Positions 15,499-46,975 of a stretch of DNA of 64,000 nucleotides are shown one piece after another. This DNA is from Pseudomonadales bacterium (GTDB taxonomy: Bacteria; Pseudomonadota; Gammaproteobacteria; Pseudomonadales; JAHRWD01), in the NCBI GenBank assembly GCA_029210125.1, contig JARGPR010000003.1, positions 248,001-312,000 of the forward strand. The letters run 5' to 3'. A model generated the notes under the pieces. It saw only the letters and a list, made by a program, of their open reading frames with translations, searched no databases and had not been told where the DNA came from. Both the position numbers and the translations under genes were made by a program. How positions within the stretch are numbered: position 1 is the stretch's first letter; the number at the start of each line of letters is the position of its first letter.

Positions 15499-15750
15499 AT
15501 GGATGCTATCAGCTATACCGCTGCCCGCGCAAACCTTGCCAGCACAATGGAGAAGGTTTGTGTGGACCACGCGCCGGTAATAATAACGCGTAAAAGTGAG
15601 AGTCCCGTAGTGATGATGTCTCTAGAGGATTATCAAGCAATGGAGGAAACCACCTATTTACTCCGTTCACCCGCTAATGCAAGACAATTACTTGAGTCAA
15701 TTGCCGAACTTGAGGCTGGAAATGGTACCGAAAGAGACCTAATTGAATGA
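15499..15750 (+). CDS. yefM: Type II antitoxin YefM (Phd/YefM family)
   Basis: An 83-residue antitoxin that neutralises YoeB and represses its own operon. The N-terminal DNA-binding half starts MDAISYTAARANLASTMEK and continues with VIITRKSESPVVMMSLEDY, the typical Phd/YefM pattern; the acidic C-terminus would wrap the toxin. ATG at 15499 follows GGGG; a longer frame from 15442 lacks family similarity and overlaps the operator. It overlaps yoeB by four bases (ATGA). Confidence 0.93.
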   Translation: MDAISYTAARANLASTMEKVCVDHAPVIITRKSESPVVMMSLEDYQAMEETTYLLRSPANARQLLESIAELEAGNGTERDLIE

Positions 15751-16007
15751 AGGTGACGTTCTCATCTAATGCATGGGACCATTATCTCTATTGGCAAAAC
15801 ACCGACAGAAAAATGATTAAAAGAATAAATACATTAATCAAAGATATTAAGCGTTCGCCCTACGAAGGAATCGGCAAGCCAGAACCACTGAAACACGGTC
15901 TAGCCAGCTATTGGTCTCGCCGTATTAATGATGAGCATCGCATCGTTTATAAATTTCAAAATGACACGATATTAATAGCTCAACTTCGGTATCACTACAG
16001 CTCATAA
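15747..16007 (+). CDS. yoeB: Type II toxin YoeB (ribosome-dependent mRNA endonuclease)
   Basis: An 86-residue RelE-superfamily toxin that cleaves mRNA at the ribosomal A site. It contains the YoeB hallmark pieces: AWDHYLYWQ near the N-terminus, PYEGIGKPEPLKHGL, YWSRRINDEHRIVYKF and the C-terminal RYHYSS with the catalytic histidine region. The start overlaps the yefM stop. The pair marks the left edge of the accessory island after the cox cluster. Confidence 0.95.
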   Translation: MKVTFSSNAWDHYLYWQNTDRKMIKRINTLIKDIKRSPYEGIGKPEPLKHGLASYWSRRINDEHRIVYKFQNDTILIAQLRYHYSS

Positions 16008-16028: not shown

Positions 16029-16739
16029 CTATGTGGCATGGAAAGAGTTGATCCCATTCGTGCTTGCGTAATGTTTATTAATAAATTCTATAGTGTTTCG
16101 ATACTTTATTTTCTGTGACTCTGGAGCGCGGCTCATCATATCGTTTAGGGGGAAAAGCAAAGGACACTTAAAACTAGTAGCACCATCTATAAATCTATAA
16201 GCAAAAACAGAATCAGAATGTCCACATAAGTTTCTTAATGGAATATCACTACTTACAAACCCATGACGTTCTGGATCTAATTCATTCTTTTGTAACTCCG
16301 CAGTAGCTGATGGAGTCAATATTAAGCCTAACCAGTTTTGGTCCTCTCCGTATTCGTGACTTTCTAAAAATGCTTTTCCCATTAATACTTTATAGTCGTA
16401 GCCGAACACCACGTCGCCATATGATACAGCCCCTCTAATAGGTAACCTCATAGACAAGCATTTGCTTATAAAACGCTTGGATACACTAATTAATGCCGGA
16501 TATTCACGTATTTTTTCAGACTTTGTGTAGATTACAAAAGTGTCAGCAAAGAAAAGATAATCAATATCTTCTTCGAAGTCTCTTGAAATATCCGTACTAA
16601 GCGTAGCCAATGCATCATCAAATTGTGATTTAAGCACCTCAATAACTACAGAGCCACCATCATTCTCTAGAAGGGACTTGAAACCCAGTATGTCAAAATG
16701 AGCTATCCAAGCGTTCCGTTTTATCCAGTTATTATTCAT
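16029..16739 (-). CDS. Unknown protein, possible nucleotidyl-cyclase-like fold
   Basis: A 236-residue soluble protein I cannot assign to a named family. The order of motifs recalls class III nucleotidyl cyclases: an AHFDILGF strand with an aspartate (D16), a second strand with aspartate in FFADTFVIY (D66), then IRGAVSYGD (about 101-109), comparable to the 'R-I-G-I-H-x-G' segment of cyclases. Whether it makes a cyclic nucleotide or only shares the fold cannot be told. It has AT-richer codons than the cox genes and sits between attC-like sequences, so it may be a gene cassette. The stop codon overlaps a GGCTAAC box (minus strand), which could be the start of a truncated attC. Confidence 0.6.
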   Translation of the reverse strand: MNNNWIKRNAWIAHFDILGFKSLLENDGGSVVIEVLKSQFDDALATLSTDISRDFEEDIDYLFFADTFVIYTKSEKIREYPALISVSKRFISKCLSMRLPIRGAVSYGDVVFGYDYKVLMGKAFLESHEYGEDQNWLGLILTPSATAELQKNELDPERHGFVSSDIPLRNLCGHSDSVFAYRFIDGATSFKCPLLFPLNDMMSRAPESQKIKYRNTIEFINKHYASTNGINSFHAT

Positions 16740-16760: not shown

Positions 16761-16841
16761 AGCTAACGCCTGAGTTGAGGGGCTTTTGTGGGGTACGCGG
16801 AACGTACGGAACAAAAGTCCCTCTCCAGCGATTTGTTATGT
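16761..16841 (-). repeat. attC-like integron recombination site A
   Basis: Read on the minus strand it starts ACATAAC (16841-16835) and ends GTTAGCT, with inner arms GAGGGACTTTTG and CAAAAGCCCCTC that pair over 12 bases with one mismatch around a 23-base centre. It begins three bases after the stop of the 144-residue gene at 16845 and ends 21 bases before the next minus-strand gene, which is how a gene cassette is built. Boxes deviate from RYYYAAC/GTTRRRY at one position each. Confidence 0.65.
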
Positions 16842-16844
16842 GGA

Positions 16845-17279
16845 TTATTGGAAATCTGCATTGAATTTTTGCATAAGCAGATTGTAGTTGTTTTTGTGCT
16901 TACTGGAGAACTTCTTCGGAACTGCGTCTTCTCCCTCCGCTACGTAAGTATCAAATGCCGAATTCATATACTGAAGATAAGCCTCGAATAATTGAGGTGA
17001 CCAAAAAGCTTGATTTGAGTACATGAGCCGATCTGCATCTCTTTTTGCCCTAATCGCTGCTGCTTGATCTATTTGCTTCCAATGCCCAACATGTTGTACG
17101 TGAACGAAAATATCGTTTAGCAATGGACCAACTTGTTCATAAATTTCGATTCTTTTGTCTACGATATTTTCTTTGGCGCCGATGGCGTTTTCGGCTATAA
17201 AGCCCAACCAAACTAGTACTAATGGGATCAGTATTGCAGAGGCTAACTTGATTTTGTTCTCCAGAGTTATTGCAGCCAC
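16845..17279 (-). CDS. Membrane-anchored unknown protein in an integron-like cassette
   Basis: A 144-residue protein with a hydrophobic segment at about residues 11-30 and a helical, charged remainder that includes two tryptophans and many glutamines. No family recognised. It begins 16 bases after a GTTATGT box (17301-17295, minus) and its stop is followed within three bases by attC-like site A, so it fits a single-gene cassette. Possible roles cannot be inferred beyond a single-pass membrane location. Confidence 0.6.
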   Translation of the reverse strand: MAAITLENKIKLASAILIPLVLVWLGFIAENAIGAKENIVDKRIEIYEQVGPLLNDIFVHVQHVGHWKQIDQAAAIRAKRDADRLMYSNQAFWSPQLFEAYLQYMNSAFDTYVAEGEDAVPKKFSSKHKNNYNLLMQKFNADFQ

Positions 17280-17294: not shown

Positions 17295-17412
17295 ACATAA
17301 CGGCCCGGCGTTGTTAGTCGGCACGTATAATCGGCACACAAGTAATTTGAAATGATTACTTATTACAACTGCACTGTGCATTAATTTTTCCATAGCAGCG
17401 CCGACTAACAAC
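17295..17412 (-). repeat. attC-like site B with perfect 13-bp inverted repeat
   Basis: Minus-strand reading: GTTGTTAGTCGGC (17412-17400), a 77-base centre, then the exact complement GCCGACTAACAAC (17322-17310), then GCCGGGCC and GTTATGT (17301-17295). The centre has its own stem (AAGTAAT/ATTACTT, 17340-17346 and 17355-17361). Long variable centres and a terminal GTTATGT box are known for chromosomal-integron attC sites; the distal RYYYAAC box is not clear. Confidence 0.5.
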
Positions 17413-17486
17413 AGTGTGAATAAGCGGAACCGGTTTTCCATGTCTTCGGATATTAATATACCAAACATGAAAAAACTAAAACCTAC

Positions 17487-17651
17487 TTAAACCATGCGCC
17501 CTTGCCGCTTACCAAATATCGATTTCAGCGCAACAATCAAAAAAAGTACGTCGCCGATAATCGGGATTAGGCCACCTAACCCCATAATACTCACGCCTAA
17601 TATTTCTGGTAGTCGTTCAGAAATTTGGGCTTCTCTGGCAGTTCTTCTTTG
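17487..17651 (-). pseudogene. Detached C-terminal copy of the neighbouring oxidase-like gene
   Basis: Fifty-four codons plus a stop, translating from QRRTAREAQ to GKRQGRMV, aligned without gaps to the last 54 residues of the intact gene at 18988-20343 (43 of 54 identical by hand count). There is no upstream remainder and no start. DNA similarity extends past the stop into the flank (about 17420-17656 against 18904-19156). It is a relic of a partial duplication, or of an element that inserted at the gene's 3' end. The absence of frameshifts suggests either youth or some past constraint. Confidence 0.85.
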
Positions 17652-17769
17652 CACACTTCAATTGTCTCTATAAAGCGAGGGTATGATTTTAAACTTCTCA
17701 TACTTATCTATTTTCTAGGGAGGGCCATTTGTTCAAGTATCTTGTGACTGTTTGGGTGAATTTGATTCG

Positions 17770-18069
17770 TTATGTTTCATCTTCAGGTAATCTCAAAAGG
17801 CGCTCATTTCTCCATACTCTCACTACATGTATTGAACTGTGTTCCTTCATATACACAATTCTGAACGGAGGGTGGATAAGCTCTCGAATTCTTTTCTCTT
17901 CAAACTCTGGAACTTGCCTGCCAATTTCCGGGTTTTGAGCAAGCGTTTGTATATGCTCAATGATGTTTGCGACGAACTGCTTGCCCACATGAGGGACACC
18001 TTCATCTGAATAGTATTTTTCGATAGTTTCTAAGTCGCTGTACGCTGACTCGGTAACATAAATTTTCAC
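17770..18069 (-). CDS. ParE/RelE-superfamily toxin
   Basis: A 99-residue toxin of the RelE/ParE fold. The sequence has the typical ParE layout: an N-terminal strand and 'SDLETIEKYYSDEG' helix, IGRQVPEFEEKRIRELI, then FRIVYMKE and VVRVWRNER near the C-terminus. ParE proteins poison gyrase while RelE relatives cut mRNA; the alternatives cannot be separated here. GTG start at 18069 directly follows the antitoxin stop (TAAGTG). Its own stop lies in an ACATAAC box (minus strand 17776-17770), as expected for a cassette with its attC beginning there. Confidence 0.87.
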   Translation of the reverse strand: MKIYVTESAYSDLETIEKYYSDEGVPHVGKQFVANIIEHIQTLAQNPEIGRQVPEFEEKRIRELIHPPFRIVYMKEHSSIHVVRVWRNERLLRLPEDET

Positions 18070-18339
18070 TTACTCGATACCAAGTTTTTTCTTCACCTCA
18101 TCCAGCTCTAATTCTTTACCCTCTTTGATTTCCATCATCCCTGTTGTGACAGCTCTCATAAATGCTCTTTCTTCTTCATTTTTTTCATACTCATCAAGAC
18201 CTTGCATTACAGCAACACCTCGCCCTCTGCTGGTAAGCAATATAGGGCGGTGACTGTCTTTTGCATGATTTACAATTTTTCCTGGATTAACTTTTAGATC
18301 AGTTAGAGGAACAATATCTTCTGAGAATTTTGTTTGCAT
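18070..18339 (-). CDS. Phd/YefM-family antitoxin
   Basis: An 89-residue antitoxin with the Phd/YefM DNA-binding half (DLKVNPGKIVNHAKDSHRP, ILLTSRGRGVAVMQGLDEY) and an acidic, lysine-rich C-terminus to bind the toxin. It is first in a two-gene operon with the ParE-like toxin and likely represses the promoter at 18381-18408 by binding the 14-bp palindrome there. Pairing a Phd-type antitoxin with a ParE/RelE toxin is common. Confidence 0.88.
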   Translation of the reverse strand: MQTKFSEDIVPLTDLKVNPGKIVNHAKDSHRPILLTSRGRGVAVMQGLDEYEKNEEERAFMRAVTTGMMEIKEGKELELDEVKKKLGIE

Positions 18340-18380
18340 GGCTGAATCACCTTGTTAATTGACGACTATGAACCGACTAG

Positions 18381-18408
18381 ATTATAGCACCTGTTAACAG
18401 GTCTTCAA
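18381..18408 (-). promoter_or_regulatory. Promoter and palindromic operator of the Phd/ParE-like module
   Basis: Minus strand: TTGAAG (18408-18403), 16-base spacer, perfect TATAAT (18386-18381). The spacer is filled by the perfect 14-bp palindrome ACCTGTTAACAGGT (18402-18389), a natural antitoxin operator position that would block RNA polymerase. Predicted transcription start is about 35 bases before the antitoxin ATG. Confidence 0.75.
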
Positions 18409-18446
18409 TGCTCGGAGTGAAGCATAGAGTGGAAGAGGGCTTTGAA

Positions 18447-18506
18447 ACTTAACGCTTGTCTCAGGCGCGCCGCTTTTTGGCGTCACTCTAGAGGCTTTTG
18501 TTATGC
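18447..18506 (-). repeat. attC site C, 60 bp, near-canonical
   Basis: Minus strand begins GCATAAC and ends GTTAAGT (a full match to GTTRRRY); between them GTGACGCC, an A-rich loop and GCGGCGCGCC form the centre, followed by TGAGACAAGC. Length and order match the short class 1 attC sites of the aadA type. The TAA stop of the VOC gene lies inside the first box, the usual arrangement for cassette genes. Confidence 0.75.
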
Positions 18507-18866
18507 AGTGGATTCCATGAGTTCGATTCGATTCCCAAAGGGGTCTCGGATGTCGAAACGTTTAAATCCCTCAATTTGTATATTTTCATACACTTTTATA
18601 CCGAGCTTTTTGAATTTATTCCTCAGTAGCTCTATATCGCTGACGTTATAGGCAATATGGGCTTTTGAATTTGCACGATGTTCGTTGTTTTCACAACCCA
18701 GATGCAATTGCAGGCTGCCCAATTGTAGCCAAAGCCCACCATTCTTTTTAAGTACTTCTGGCTTTTCGATTTCAGTTAATCCGAGAATTTTACCGTAAAA
18801 CTCTCGAGCTTCCTCTTCGGCGCCGAATGGTATTGTGACCTGAACGTGATTGACGCCTATGACCAT
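18501..18866 (-). CDS. VOC/glyoxalase-family protein
   Basis: A 121-residue single VOC module pair: strand NHVQVTIPFG at the start, LWLQLGSLQLHLG, SKAHIAYNVSD, and DPFGNRIELME near the end. Candidate metal ligands are the histidine of NHVQV, that of LQLHLG or AHIAY, and the glutamate of RIELME. Members act as glyoxalases, fosfomycin or bleomycin resistance proteins or dioxygenases; the substrate is unknown. ATG at 18866 matches the domain start, while a longer frame reaches 19016 through non-coding DNA. A GTTATGC junction lies 23 bases upstream (18896-18890) and attC site C overlaps its stop, so this is most likely an integron cassette. Confidence 0.85.
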   Translation of the reverse strand: MVIGVNHVQVTIPFGAEEEAREFYGKILGLTEIEKPEVLKKNGGLWLQLGSLQLHLGCENNEHRANSKAHIAYNVSDIELLRNKFKKLGIKVYENIQIEGFKRFDIRDPFGNRIELMESTA

Positions 18867-18903
18867 AACTTCACTCTGTGTGATTAACTGCATAACAGCG
18901 TCG

Positions 18904-19156
18904 ATAATCGGAACCGATTTTCCACGTATTCGGATATTAATATATCCAACAACTAAAACCTGCTGGAAGCAAAGCCAGGTGCTCTGCTTAAACCATGCTC
19001 CCTTGCGGCTCACCAAAGATCGATTTCAGCGCAACAATCAAAAACAATACGCCGCCGATAATCGAGATTAGGCCGCCTAGTCCCATCATACCCATGCCTA
19101 ATATTTCCGGCAGTCGTTCAAGAATTTGGGCTTCTCCAGCGGTCTTTCTTTGCACG
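18904..19156. repeat. Direct repeat: 3' end of oxidase-like gene (intact copy)
   Basis: About 250 bases covering the last 54 codons of the gene at 18988-20343 and about 85 bases of downstream flank. A diverged direct copy lies at about 17420-17656. The interval between copies (17657-18903) holds the Phd/ParE-like module and the VOC gene. Confidence 0.85.
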
Positions 19157-20343
19157 CCGTAACCGCCGGACCAGGCCAGTCCAAGTATGTGCATCATTTG
19201 CCCGCCGCCATAAACGAAGGGCTGAATTTTTCCCAGCTTAAGGCTAACTTCGCCGTAGCCTAGTTTGGGCAATATCAGGTAGATCAAACCCATAAAGGCC
19301 AGCGTCACCCCAACGATAGAGCCGTGATAGTGAGCGGGTATCACCACATTTACGCCTTCAATTAAAAAGCCAATAATGCCGCCGGTTGCAAATAGTACCA
19401 GTGAGCAGAACAGCGCGGCCTTCATCGGTCGTAGCGCTTCATCAACCTTGCCGAGTGTGAGGATTTTCCATGTGCAGATCAGCCCAATAGGCAGCGACAG
19501 CAGACCGCCAAATTTCATCAAGTCGGTAAAGGCTAGCCGTGCTTCAACGGACTCCATCGAGTAGTTGAAATAAAGCCAGGGTGTAGCCAGTACCGGCAAC
19601 ACGACTACTAGAAGAAGTAAACGTGTGGTTTGCGTTTTTGTAGGTAGCCGCGCGCCAAGTGCGTAAATCAGGATCACCCAAACTAACAGCATTAACAGTG
19701 TATGGCTGAATTGCAAAACATGCCCCGGCGCCCAAAACAGCACTTCGTAATAGGCGGTTCCAGTCAGCGATGCATCAATATTTTTCCAGTTCCAGCCCAG
19801 TGCCAGCAGCGCGATAAAGGTAGTAATGACACTGGCCTGCAGAATTGTTGGAAGAAGCCCGCTTCGGCCAGCATTTTTAGTGGTTAGCAGGTTATAAAGC
19901 AGTTGCACTGCGATACCGGCGGCAACGGTATTGAGGCCAAAGAAAAACAGCGGGTGCTGCAATACCGGAACATAGTTGTTCATCAACGGATCGCCAGCTC
20001 CAGCAAAGGGGGAGACCACCATAATCAGGGTACCCGTCGCGACTAAAGCAGGGGCGATCAAAATAAATTTTGGTGCCTCTCTAATTTGTACGCTCCAAAG
20101 CAGCGCTGACATCGATAAAAACCAGATCAACACCGACAGATCAACATGCACTACCAGCGCGGTGTGGAAAAAATCCACCCAGGGAATCATTGATTGAATA
20201 CCTGGGGTTCGAGATAAAACCAGTAGCAGCGAAAATAAGCCCGCTGCGATCAGCGAAAAAACCGCCAGCAATAACCAGCATTTTAACAGCGGTTGAGGGC
20301 GGTTGGGGTCGATAGGTAAAGCAAATGGATTAGAGGGTTTCAT
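18988..20343 (-). CDS. Heme-copper oxidase subunit I-like membrane protein (CcoN-related)
   Basis: A 451-residue protein with about twelve hydrophobic helices, related to cbb3-type subunit I and NorB. Candidate heme ligands are H66 (VVHVDLS), H208 and H214 (APGHVLQFSH), and H338/H340 (PAHYHGS). The helix that in true oxidases carries the two adjacent CuB histidines reads EARLAFTDLMKFGG here and has none, so oxygen or NO reduction of the normal kind is doubtful. No ccoO, ccoP or norC gene is nearby. I recall similar orphan proteins annotated as cbb3 subunit I in other proteobacteria; the role is open. Its 3' end is duplicated at 17420-17656. Confidence 0.8.
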   Translation of the reverse strand: MKPSNPFALPIDPNRPQPLLKCWLLLAVFSLIAAGLFSLLLVLSRTPGIQSMIPWVDFFHTALVVHVDLSVLIWFLSMSALLWSVQIREAPKFILIAPALVATGTLIMVVSPFAGAGDPLMNNYVPVLQHPLFFFGLNTVAAGIAVQLLYNLLTTKNAGRSGLLPTILQASVITTFIALLALGWNWKNIDASLTGTAYYEVLFWAPGHVLQFSHTLLMLLVWVILIYALGARLPTKTQTTRLLLLVVVLPVLATPWLYFNYSMESVEARLAFTDLMKFGGLLSLPIGLICTWKILTLGKVDEALRPMKAALFCSLVLFATGGIIGFLIEGVNVVIPAHYHGSIVGVTLAFMGLIYLILPKLGYGEVSLKLGKIQPFVYGGGQMMHILGLAWSGGYGVQRKTAGEAQILERLPEILGMGMMGLGGLISIIGGVLFLIVALKSIFGEPQGSMV

Positions 20344-46897: not shown

Positions 46898-46920
46898 CCA
46901 TCGTGTGTATAAGAGATATA

Positions 46921-46947
46921 AAAAAGGACCGTTTACGGTCCTTTTTT
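46921..46947 (+). terminator. Terminator between convergent acyl-CoA dehydrogenase and GldG-like genes
   Basis: AAAAAGGACCG, loop TTTA, CGGTCC followed by six T residues. With the A-tract on the other side it can act in both directions. Confidence 0.85.
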
Positions 46948-46975
46948 ATATTGGCTTTTGCAGCATGCTTGATGG

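Follow-up and report, generated by a model that had tools for sequence, protein, structure and literature searches.

We analyzed a 64,000-nucleotide stretch of the genome of a Pseudomonadales bacterium (GenBank assembly GCA_029210125.1, contig JARGPR010000003.1, positions 248,001 to 312,000 of the forward strand; hereafter the window, whose own positions are used below). In this window, the 3' end of a COX1-family gene occurs twice, as copies A and B, with a VOC gene and a Phd-ParE toxin-antitoxin module in between. Behind each gene end lies a site that aligns with a motif found next to the integron integrase gene (intI) of the same genome, and we consider it probable, jointly with the history of duplication and excision set out below, that the region from 15.3 to 19.0 kb is an integron-type cassette array headed by such an attI-type site. 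The features are listed in the reading direction of the array; R1 denotes a profile of the motif, arm scores come from an attC arm-energy finder, and ORF stands for open reading frame.

The duplicated gene end and its surroundings

18988..20343, minus strand: host gene of the COX1 family (heme-copper oxidase subunit I-like), 451 amino acids, intact, its 3' end being copy A (Pfam PF00115, 54.5 bits)
18894..19155, minus strand: copy A of the repeat, comprising the last 56 codons of the COX1-family gene including the stop, the flank, and an attI-type site (alignment)
18896..18957, minus strand: attI-type site A, short form with one ~34-bp repeat unit absent, crossover G at 18896 (motif alignment; R1 E 1.8e-10, R1 having been trained on site A)
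18453..18895, minus strand: VOC (glyoxalase-fold) gene cassette (Pfam PF00903, 37.9 bits; boundaries read from the sequence)
18447..18506, minus strand: putative attC of the VOC cassette (arm score -8.9; related attC-like stretches in two further genomes of this order)
18070..18339, minus strand: Phd/YefM-family antitoxin gene (PF02604, 57.4 bits)
17770..18069, minus strand: ParE-family toxin gene (PF05016, 63.9 bits)
17655..17656, minus strand: junction at which the truncated Phd-ParE cassette meets the second gene end (abrupt loss of similarity, 28/100 outside)
17410..17654, minus strand: copy B of the repeat, comprising a decayed gene end (55 codons and stop, 17487-17654), the flank, and an attI-type site (alignment, substitution analysis)
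17412..17475, minus strand: attI-type site B, short form, crossover G at 17412 (motif alignment; R1 E 3.8e-12, R1 having been trained on site B)
17301..17411, minus strand: ORF-less cassette directly on the core of attI B (copies at five other genomic places, 93-100%)
16845..17279, minus strand: cassette ORF of 144 amino acids without Pfam match (ORF list, Pfam)
16761..16841, minus strand: predicted attC of the 144-amino-acid cassette (core sites by eye; missed by the arm finder; hairpin z -4.32 for 16772-16851)
16029..16739, minus strand: ORF of 236 amino acids, possible last cassette (ORF list, Pfam; no attC recognized)

Gapped comparison of the window with itself aligned 17410-17654 to 18894-19155 with 79% identity over 262 columns (E 5.5e-61). 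The alignment contains two ungapped blocks, 17483-17654/18984-19155 (172 nt, 86%) and 17410-17477/18894-18961 (68 nt, 81%), and the coding part of the repeat is 86% identical between the copies. At E <= 1e-3, the same comparison gave only one further match, a near-perfect palindrome of 36 bp at 46916-46951 (94%). Directly outside the repeat, identity drops to 28/100 and 26/100, so that the similarity ends abruptly on both sides. Both copies are located inside one 317-kb contig.

The first-pass annotation of this DNA had proposed a direct duplication of the gene's 3' end around a Phd/ParE-like module and a VOC gene. This duplication is confirmed by the alignment, and the gene content by the Pfam matches to Phd/YefM, ParE, and glyoxalase/VOC. 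The annotation had also suggested a precise alignment of both copies as a check; the best 172-nt match of the region has 148/172 identities, far beyond the 73/172 of the top of 200 three-base-block shuffles. Its figures of 54 codons with 43 of 54 residues identical need correction, as the duplicated fragment comprises 55 codons with 44/55 identical residues (counted from the translations of both copies), and the flanks are gapped by 9 and 8 bases between the copies. The flank, described as repeated, is indeed so but is not anonymous, as it is the short form of an attI-type site that is present at 19 genomic places.

At both attI-type sites of the window, the adjoining sequence begins at the G^TT core, and the core of attI A lies 91 bp past the COX1-family stop codon. 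Each site aligns to the full attI motif of ~105 bp with the exception of the one absent repeat unit. The VOC ORF most likely starts, to judge from its sequence, with the ATG near 18869. Relatives of the putative VOC attC (83% over 42 bp and 100% over 23 bp) are present within attC-like stretches of two further genomes of the order, and the attC of the ORF-less cassette at 17301-17411 is internally deleted relative to a ~239-bp form elsewhere in the genome.

The integrase and the dispersed attI-type sites

The genome encodes one integron integrase above the cut-off (TIGR02249, C5:2164-3108, 436.7 bits, cut-off 265), on contig C5 and not on the window contig. A full attI motif at C5:1994-2096 sits between the intI start codon at 2104 and a cassette array with clear attC sites, three in number, with arm scores of -21.9, -13.2, and -10.8. 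The genome thus contains an integron-family IntI, an attI beside intI, and attC-bearing cassettes, the attC sites of the window being weaker.

An exact scan with a degenerate core pattern, covering one genome per species in 84,980 species (a set that may omit the window's own genome), found four stretches, two in the Pseudomonadales metagenome-assembled genome (MAG) NORP341 and one each in two Cycloclasticus MAGs. One of the latter encodes an IntI with 79% identity and has the same attI motif at the same spacing. As the motif lies beside intI in our genome and at the same distance from the 79% identical IntI in Cycloclasticus, we take it, on grounds of position and conservation, as the attI of this integrase lineage. 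A horizontal spread of this integron between distant gammaproteobacteria is possible. The two Cycloclasticus loci are on LWTN01000218.1 (L076) and JAHRWG010000034.1 (L077), and the MAG without the 79% identical protein has an IntI remnant (34% over 50 amino acids).

When the genome was searched with the window repeat, the first ~40 bp were found at eight other places, several of them at contig ends. A search with one of these eight revealed a motif of ~100 bp at 13 places (query and intI site counted) plus the two window copies, in addition to one weak match. Twelve dispersed copies, with the intI-side copy among them, share 82-99% identity over 54-98 bp with a reference copy taken from the same group. 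Profile R1, trained on 21 motif copies of which 15 are from this genome, detected 19 places in the genome at E <= 1.3e-5 (four outside the training set) and one weak place. In a sister species of the same genus, it had eight matches at E <= 0.05, four of them in the training set, and it matched nothing in three additional genomes of the order. A coarser DNA search of 390 genomes of the order left 387 without match, the others being this genome, the sister genome, and one with a weak 33-bp match. The motif had no match in plasmids (BLAST) or viral contigs (exact pattern), and a promoter consensus was found in attI only as often as expected by chance (1 match versus 1.1 expected).

The gene neighbors of the sites could be judged at 16 of the 19 places, with the intI site, copy B, and one site cut by a contig end excluded. 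At 15 of these 16, an intact ORF points at the site and ends with its stop codon about 91-293 bp before the core (two-sided binomial p 5e-4), the exception being clpB. On the other side, where sequence exists, the first ORF reads away from the site. The gene names recO, queG, phzF, dnaG, clpB, and ppsA used here are provisional, having been read by eye from translations.

To the right of attI, 9 strong attC sites (arm score <= -11) were found, distributed over 5 of 17 loci (two at the intI locus, five at three dispersed sites of this genome, and two at one sister site), in comparison to none in a window background of 118 kb. With the threshold relaxed to <= -8, a few are also present left of attI or in the background. 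These counts come from one arm-energy finder; a looser variant gave 16 background matches at <= -8 in 84 kb, and another missed the window sites. The ORF-less cassette is present at six genomic places (93-100%), window copy B included. Four of these copies begin exactly on an attI core, two of which are cut off by a contig end after 49 and 54 bp, and the remaining two lie in two further arrays. This cassette on attI cores provides the strongest hint of a present or past use of the dispersed sites, as far as sequence comparison can indicate.

Four attI places look orthologous in both species, namely the COX1-family gene, phzF, the queG-dnaG interval, and recO, with R1 E-values in the sister of 3.1e-5, 1.3e-9, 1.2e-25, and a weak 0.005 at the same place, respectively. 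The sister copies at the COX1-family gene, phzF, and recO are degenerate, and in the queG-dnaG interval of this genome an additional gene separates queG from attI. Of the copies in this genome, those at the shared recO and phzF places are among the diverged ones (82-84% to the motif query), and seven, the intI site included, are at 92-99%. The attI looks like a site family that keeps being copied. A simple history is opposed by the finding that the best IntI of the sister reaches only 49% identity, with no such motif next to it, although three attI copies of the sister are well preserved (90-100 bits; contigs C14, C60, and C10 of its genome, G001). The sister assembly is 95% complete, and a second IntI could be missing from it. 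A search of the sister genome for the ppsA-like site gave attI matches only. At the sister queG locus (L071), the attI motif begins directly at a shortened queG stop codon, possibly after a deletion up to the left edge of attI.

Two other explanations for the dispersal were tried and rejected. The motif contains an inverted TTTTCCAYGT/ACRTGGAAAA pair, which could suggest a transposon end or a miniature inverted-repeat transposable element. In a scan of 21 loci and the window, this pair was found only inside attI copies, an extra pair at L045 belonging to the second attI copy of that locus. In addition, the conserved part continues up to the attI core, and the motif accompanies IntI in two distant bacteria. 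A spread of whole intI-attI platforms was likewise discarded as a general explanation, since among the dispersed copies of this genome only that on contig C1 (L050) is accompanied by what may be the remains of an intI start (37% over 35 amino acids, E 0.006).

Some minor features of these loci were also noted. Contigs C2, C17, C18, C20, and C29 of this genome (G000) end in or beside the attI motif, and for this reason the arrays may be longer and more numerous than the assembly shows. The left flanks of L049 and L051 have a stretch of 23 bp in common (96%), outside the motif and ~145-190 bp left of the attI core, which is perhaps the trace of a longer copied unit. At L047, a complete ORF-less cassette starts inside an apparent open frame ~340 bp right of attI, a possible secondary-site insertion. 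In a few attI copies, the left edge by eye shows an apparent G^TT scar, which an entry of attI circles into attG-like sites would be expected to leave.

Origin of the duplication

The COX1-family gene has a single-copy ortholog in the same genus with 88% amino acid identity, which served as outgroup to polarize 22 differences between the two window copies, all within codons 1 to 52 of the 55 that these have in common. On copy B, 14 changes are derived, 10 nonsynonymous and 4 synonymous (one of the former becomes synonymous if codon 37 is read whole). Copy A, the live gene, has five derived changes (2 nonsynonymous, 3 synonymous), and three sites of the 22 could be assigned to neither copy. The nonsynonymous proportion on copy B of 71% compares with a neutral expectation of 73-75%. 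Because the changes match the neutral ratio, the open frame of copy B is a matter of chance, and copy B has behaved like non-coding DNA since the duplication. The intact frame, to which the first-pass annotation had drawn attention, is hence no sign of function, and the window duplication is, judging by this decay, an old pseudogene-like scar.

A relative with a single copy, which the same annotation had proposed to look for, exists in the sister species. Its one COX1-family gene end matches the two window copies about equally (78.5% and 77.7% at the DNA level) and is followed by the degenerate attI-type remnant already mentioned, beside a region that by eye resembles an IS3-type transposase. 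No Phd-ParE or VOC ORF was seen by eye in the sister interval between the COX1-family gene and a cox15-like gene.

The junction at 17655/17656 does not look like an att site by eye, and its distance past a putative R'' box of the ParE attC is 118 bp; the ParE stop overlaps ACATAAC, readable by eye as this box, and the 3' half of the attC is not recognizable. With attC lengths of 57-141 bp (PMC12901181), this distance fits a break inside the ParE attC.

From these sequence features, we think it likely that a tandem duplication of ~1.5 kb was followed by IntI-mediated excision of one cassette set, and that one integrase appears to serve the dispersed attI-type sites, about 19 in this genome and mostly behind host genes, so that the window array would be one of several. 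The duplication would have extended from about codon 397 of the COX1-family gene through attI, VOC, and Phd-ParE into the attC hairpin of Phd-ParE, which would offer a natural slippage point for the duplication end. Its product would have been two copies of the gene end, attI, and the cassettes, joined inside the Phd-ParE attC. IntI provided from another locus would then have excised VOC and Phd-ParE behind attI B in an ordinary attI x attC recombination, by which attI B would have been left against the next cassette, and the duplicated gene fragment would have decayed afterwards. Such a course of events would explain why the junction is not of the att type, why the attC is truncated, why the G^TT joint at attI B is exact, and why the decay is neutral.

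As G^TT attI cores bound the unit 18895-17412 on both sides, it was conceivable that this unit (VOC, Phd-ParE, gene end, and attI B) had been captured at attI A as a single circle, through recombination of one attI with another. Recombination between attI sites has been described (PMC8946536), cassettes that end in attI pieces, in one case a complete attI1, recombine with IntI1 (PMC12901181), and the window unit resembles these delta-attI-type cassettes in that it ends in attI B and not in an attC. However, it differs from them by the 55 host-gene codons and the truncated attC, which are best explained by duplication, and by an attI part of ~64 bp, whereas the reported types mostly have 14-18 nt, with one of 244 nt and the one complete attI1 (PMC12901181). 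A separate event would still be required to fuse the gene end to attI within a cassette, and a copy taken from a working gene of another lineage would show mostly synonymous differences, not the 10:4 excess of nonsynonymous ones. We therefore regard this capture as rather unlikely. The part 17656-18520 of the unit is found at one place in the own genome, with best matches among 55 relatives of 66% over 489 bp (G006) and 72% over 126 bp (G001). A donor from a sister strain, of which a fragment with gene end, attI, the 144-amino-acid cassette, and sequence beyond would have recombined downstream with an illegitimate end at 17655, would account both for the illegitimate junction and for the degree to which the copies have diverged. 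This is less probable again, since the copy B branch is neutral and not synonymous-biased and since the sister species, the one same-genus genome compared, is about equally close to both copies.

Foreign genes enclosed by a directly repeated gene end, with the gene itself intact, are also what a classical integrative element at a gene 3' end would leave behind (attL/attR and a restored gene end). Yet no recombinase is among the products of the unit, in which VOC, Phd, and ParE were recognized, the integrase being on another contig, and the repeat is long, diverged, and ends at the integron attI core of a 19-place motif, so that such a footprint is very improbable. Accordingly, the earlier suggestion of an element inserting at the gene's 3' end finds no support in its usual sense, whereas the alternative of a tandem duplication of an insertion site is near to the reading preferred here, with the flank as attI-type site and the insert as cassettes. 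The fragmented assembly, with several contigs ending in or beside the motif, could also raise the suspicion of an artefact. Chance similarity or misassembly is, however, hardly conceivable in view of the alignment statistics and the shuffling result given above, a divergence of 14% that is unlike duplicated reads, and the location of both copies on one long contig.

Several points nevertheless weigh against the duplication and excision within an integron-type array. No strain was seen that carries the intermediate, with both cassette sets complete. The VOC attC folds no better than shuffled sequences do (z -0.73), and at the cut-off of <= -8, below which its arm score of -8.9 falls, the background has five matches in 118 kb. 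No hairpin was found in 17656-17780, past ParE (z 0.09), and the truncated ParE attC consists of a single R'' box read by eye. The polarity of the substitutions depends on one outgroup and 52 of 55 codons. With regard to the dispersed sites, the training set of R1 includes 15 of the 19 genomic places, and 12 of the 17 attI loci, the window included, have no attC at <= -11, so that a number of the arrays may have degenerated or may be no arrays in the first place.

Relation to known integron systems

Toxin-antitoxin and VOC cargo is usual in sedentary chromosomal integrons. The present system resembles these in its TIGR02249-family IntI, the attI beside intI, the attC cassettes, and its toxin-antitoxin and VOC genes, but differs in having ~19 chromosomal attI-motif places instead of one, with a single intI found. 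Integrons typically have one attI, and IntegronFinder misses attI outside class 1 (PMC9024848). Clusters of attC sites lacking an integron integrase (CALINs) have been described in Xanthomonas, and cassette arrays without intI can be mobilized in trans (PMC12444791). Cassette arrays without intI may occur here too; with regard to the minimum of two attC sites and the lack of a neighboring intI that characterize a CALIN, the window has two attC-type sites (16.76-16.84 and 18.45-18.51 kb), each with mixed support, and the only intI above cut-off is on another contig. In contrast to CALINs, the arrays here start with a cognate attI copy, and attI-headed arrays elsewhere could have been missed by IntegronFinder (PMC9024848). 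The occurrence of cassettes at many chromosomal places is also reminiscent of attG sites, at which cassettes insert in E. coli (Loot et al. 2024, as cited in PMC12444791). However, an attG is neither an attC nor an attI according to citing papers (PMC12444791, PMC12901181), whereas the sites found here match the attI motif.

Judged from sequence, one integrase together with many dispersed attI copies is a new form of integron organization. We found no report of dispersed attI copies among the titles and abstract openings listed in our literature searches, whose coverage leaves out most subscription journals, and do not claim their absence from print. More tentatively, and with somewhat less than even confidence, we propose a polycentric integron, in which one integrase would serve an archipelago of attI sites that spread through the chromosome as a repeat family, attI being a copying and not a fixed site. 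The attI copies could be kept behind host stop codons, a position in which captured cassettes could be expressed by read-through. Some attI copies look old, diverged, and common to both species, and others are nearly identical and look young. Duplications of a gene end with its attI, like that in the window, may be by-products of, or steps in, this spread.

Integrons are described with one integrase and, as a rule, a single attI and a single array. If true, the present reading would revise the number of capture points per integrase, cassette expression without an integron promoter, and the origin of integrase-less clusters. The origin of CALINs would become testable via cognate attI copies at array heads; outside class 1, such copies escape the software in common use (PMC9024848).

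As a side aspect, the far end of the window array carries on the opposite strand (15499-16007, plus) a YefM-YoeB toxin-antitoxin pair (PF02604, 86 bits; PF06769, 128 bits), for which no attC was recognized.
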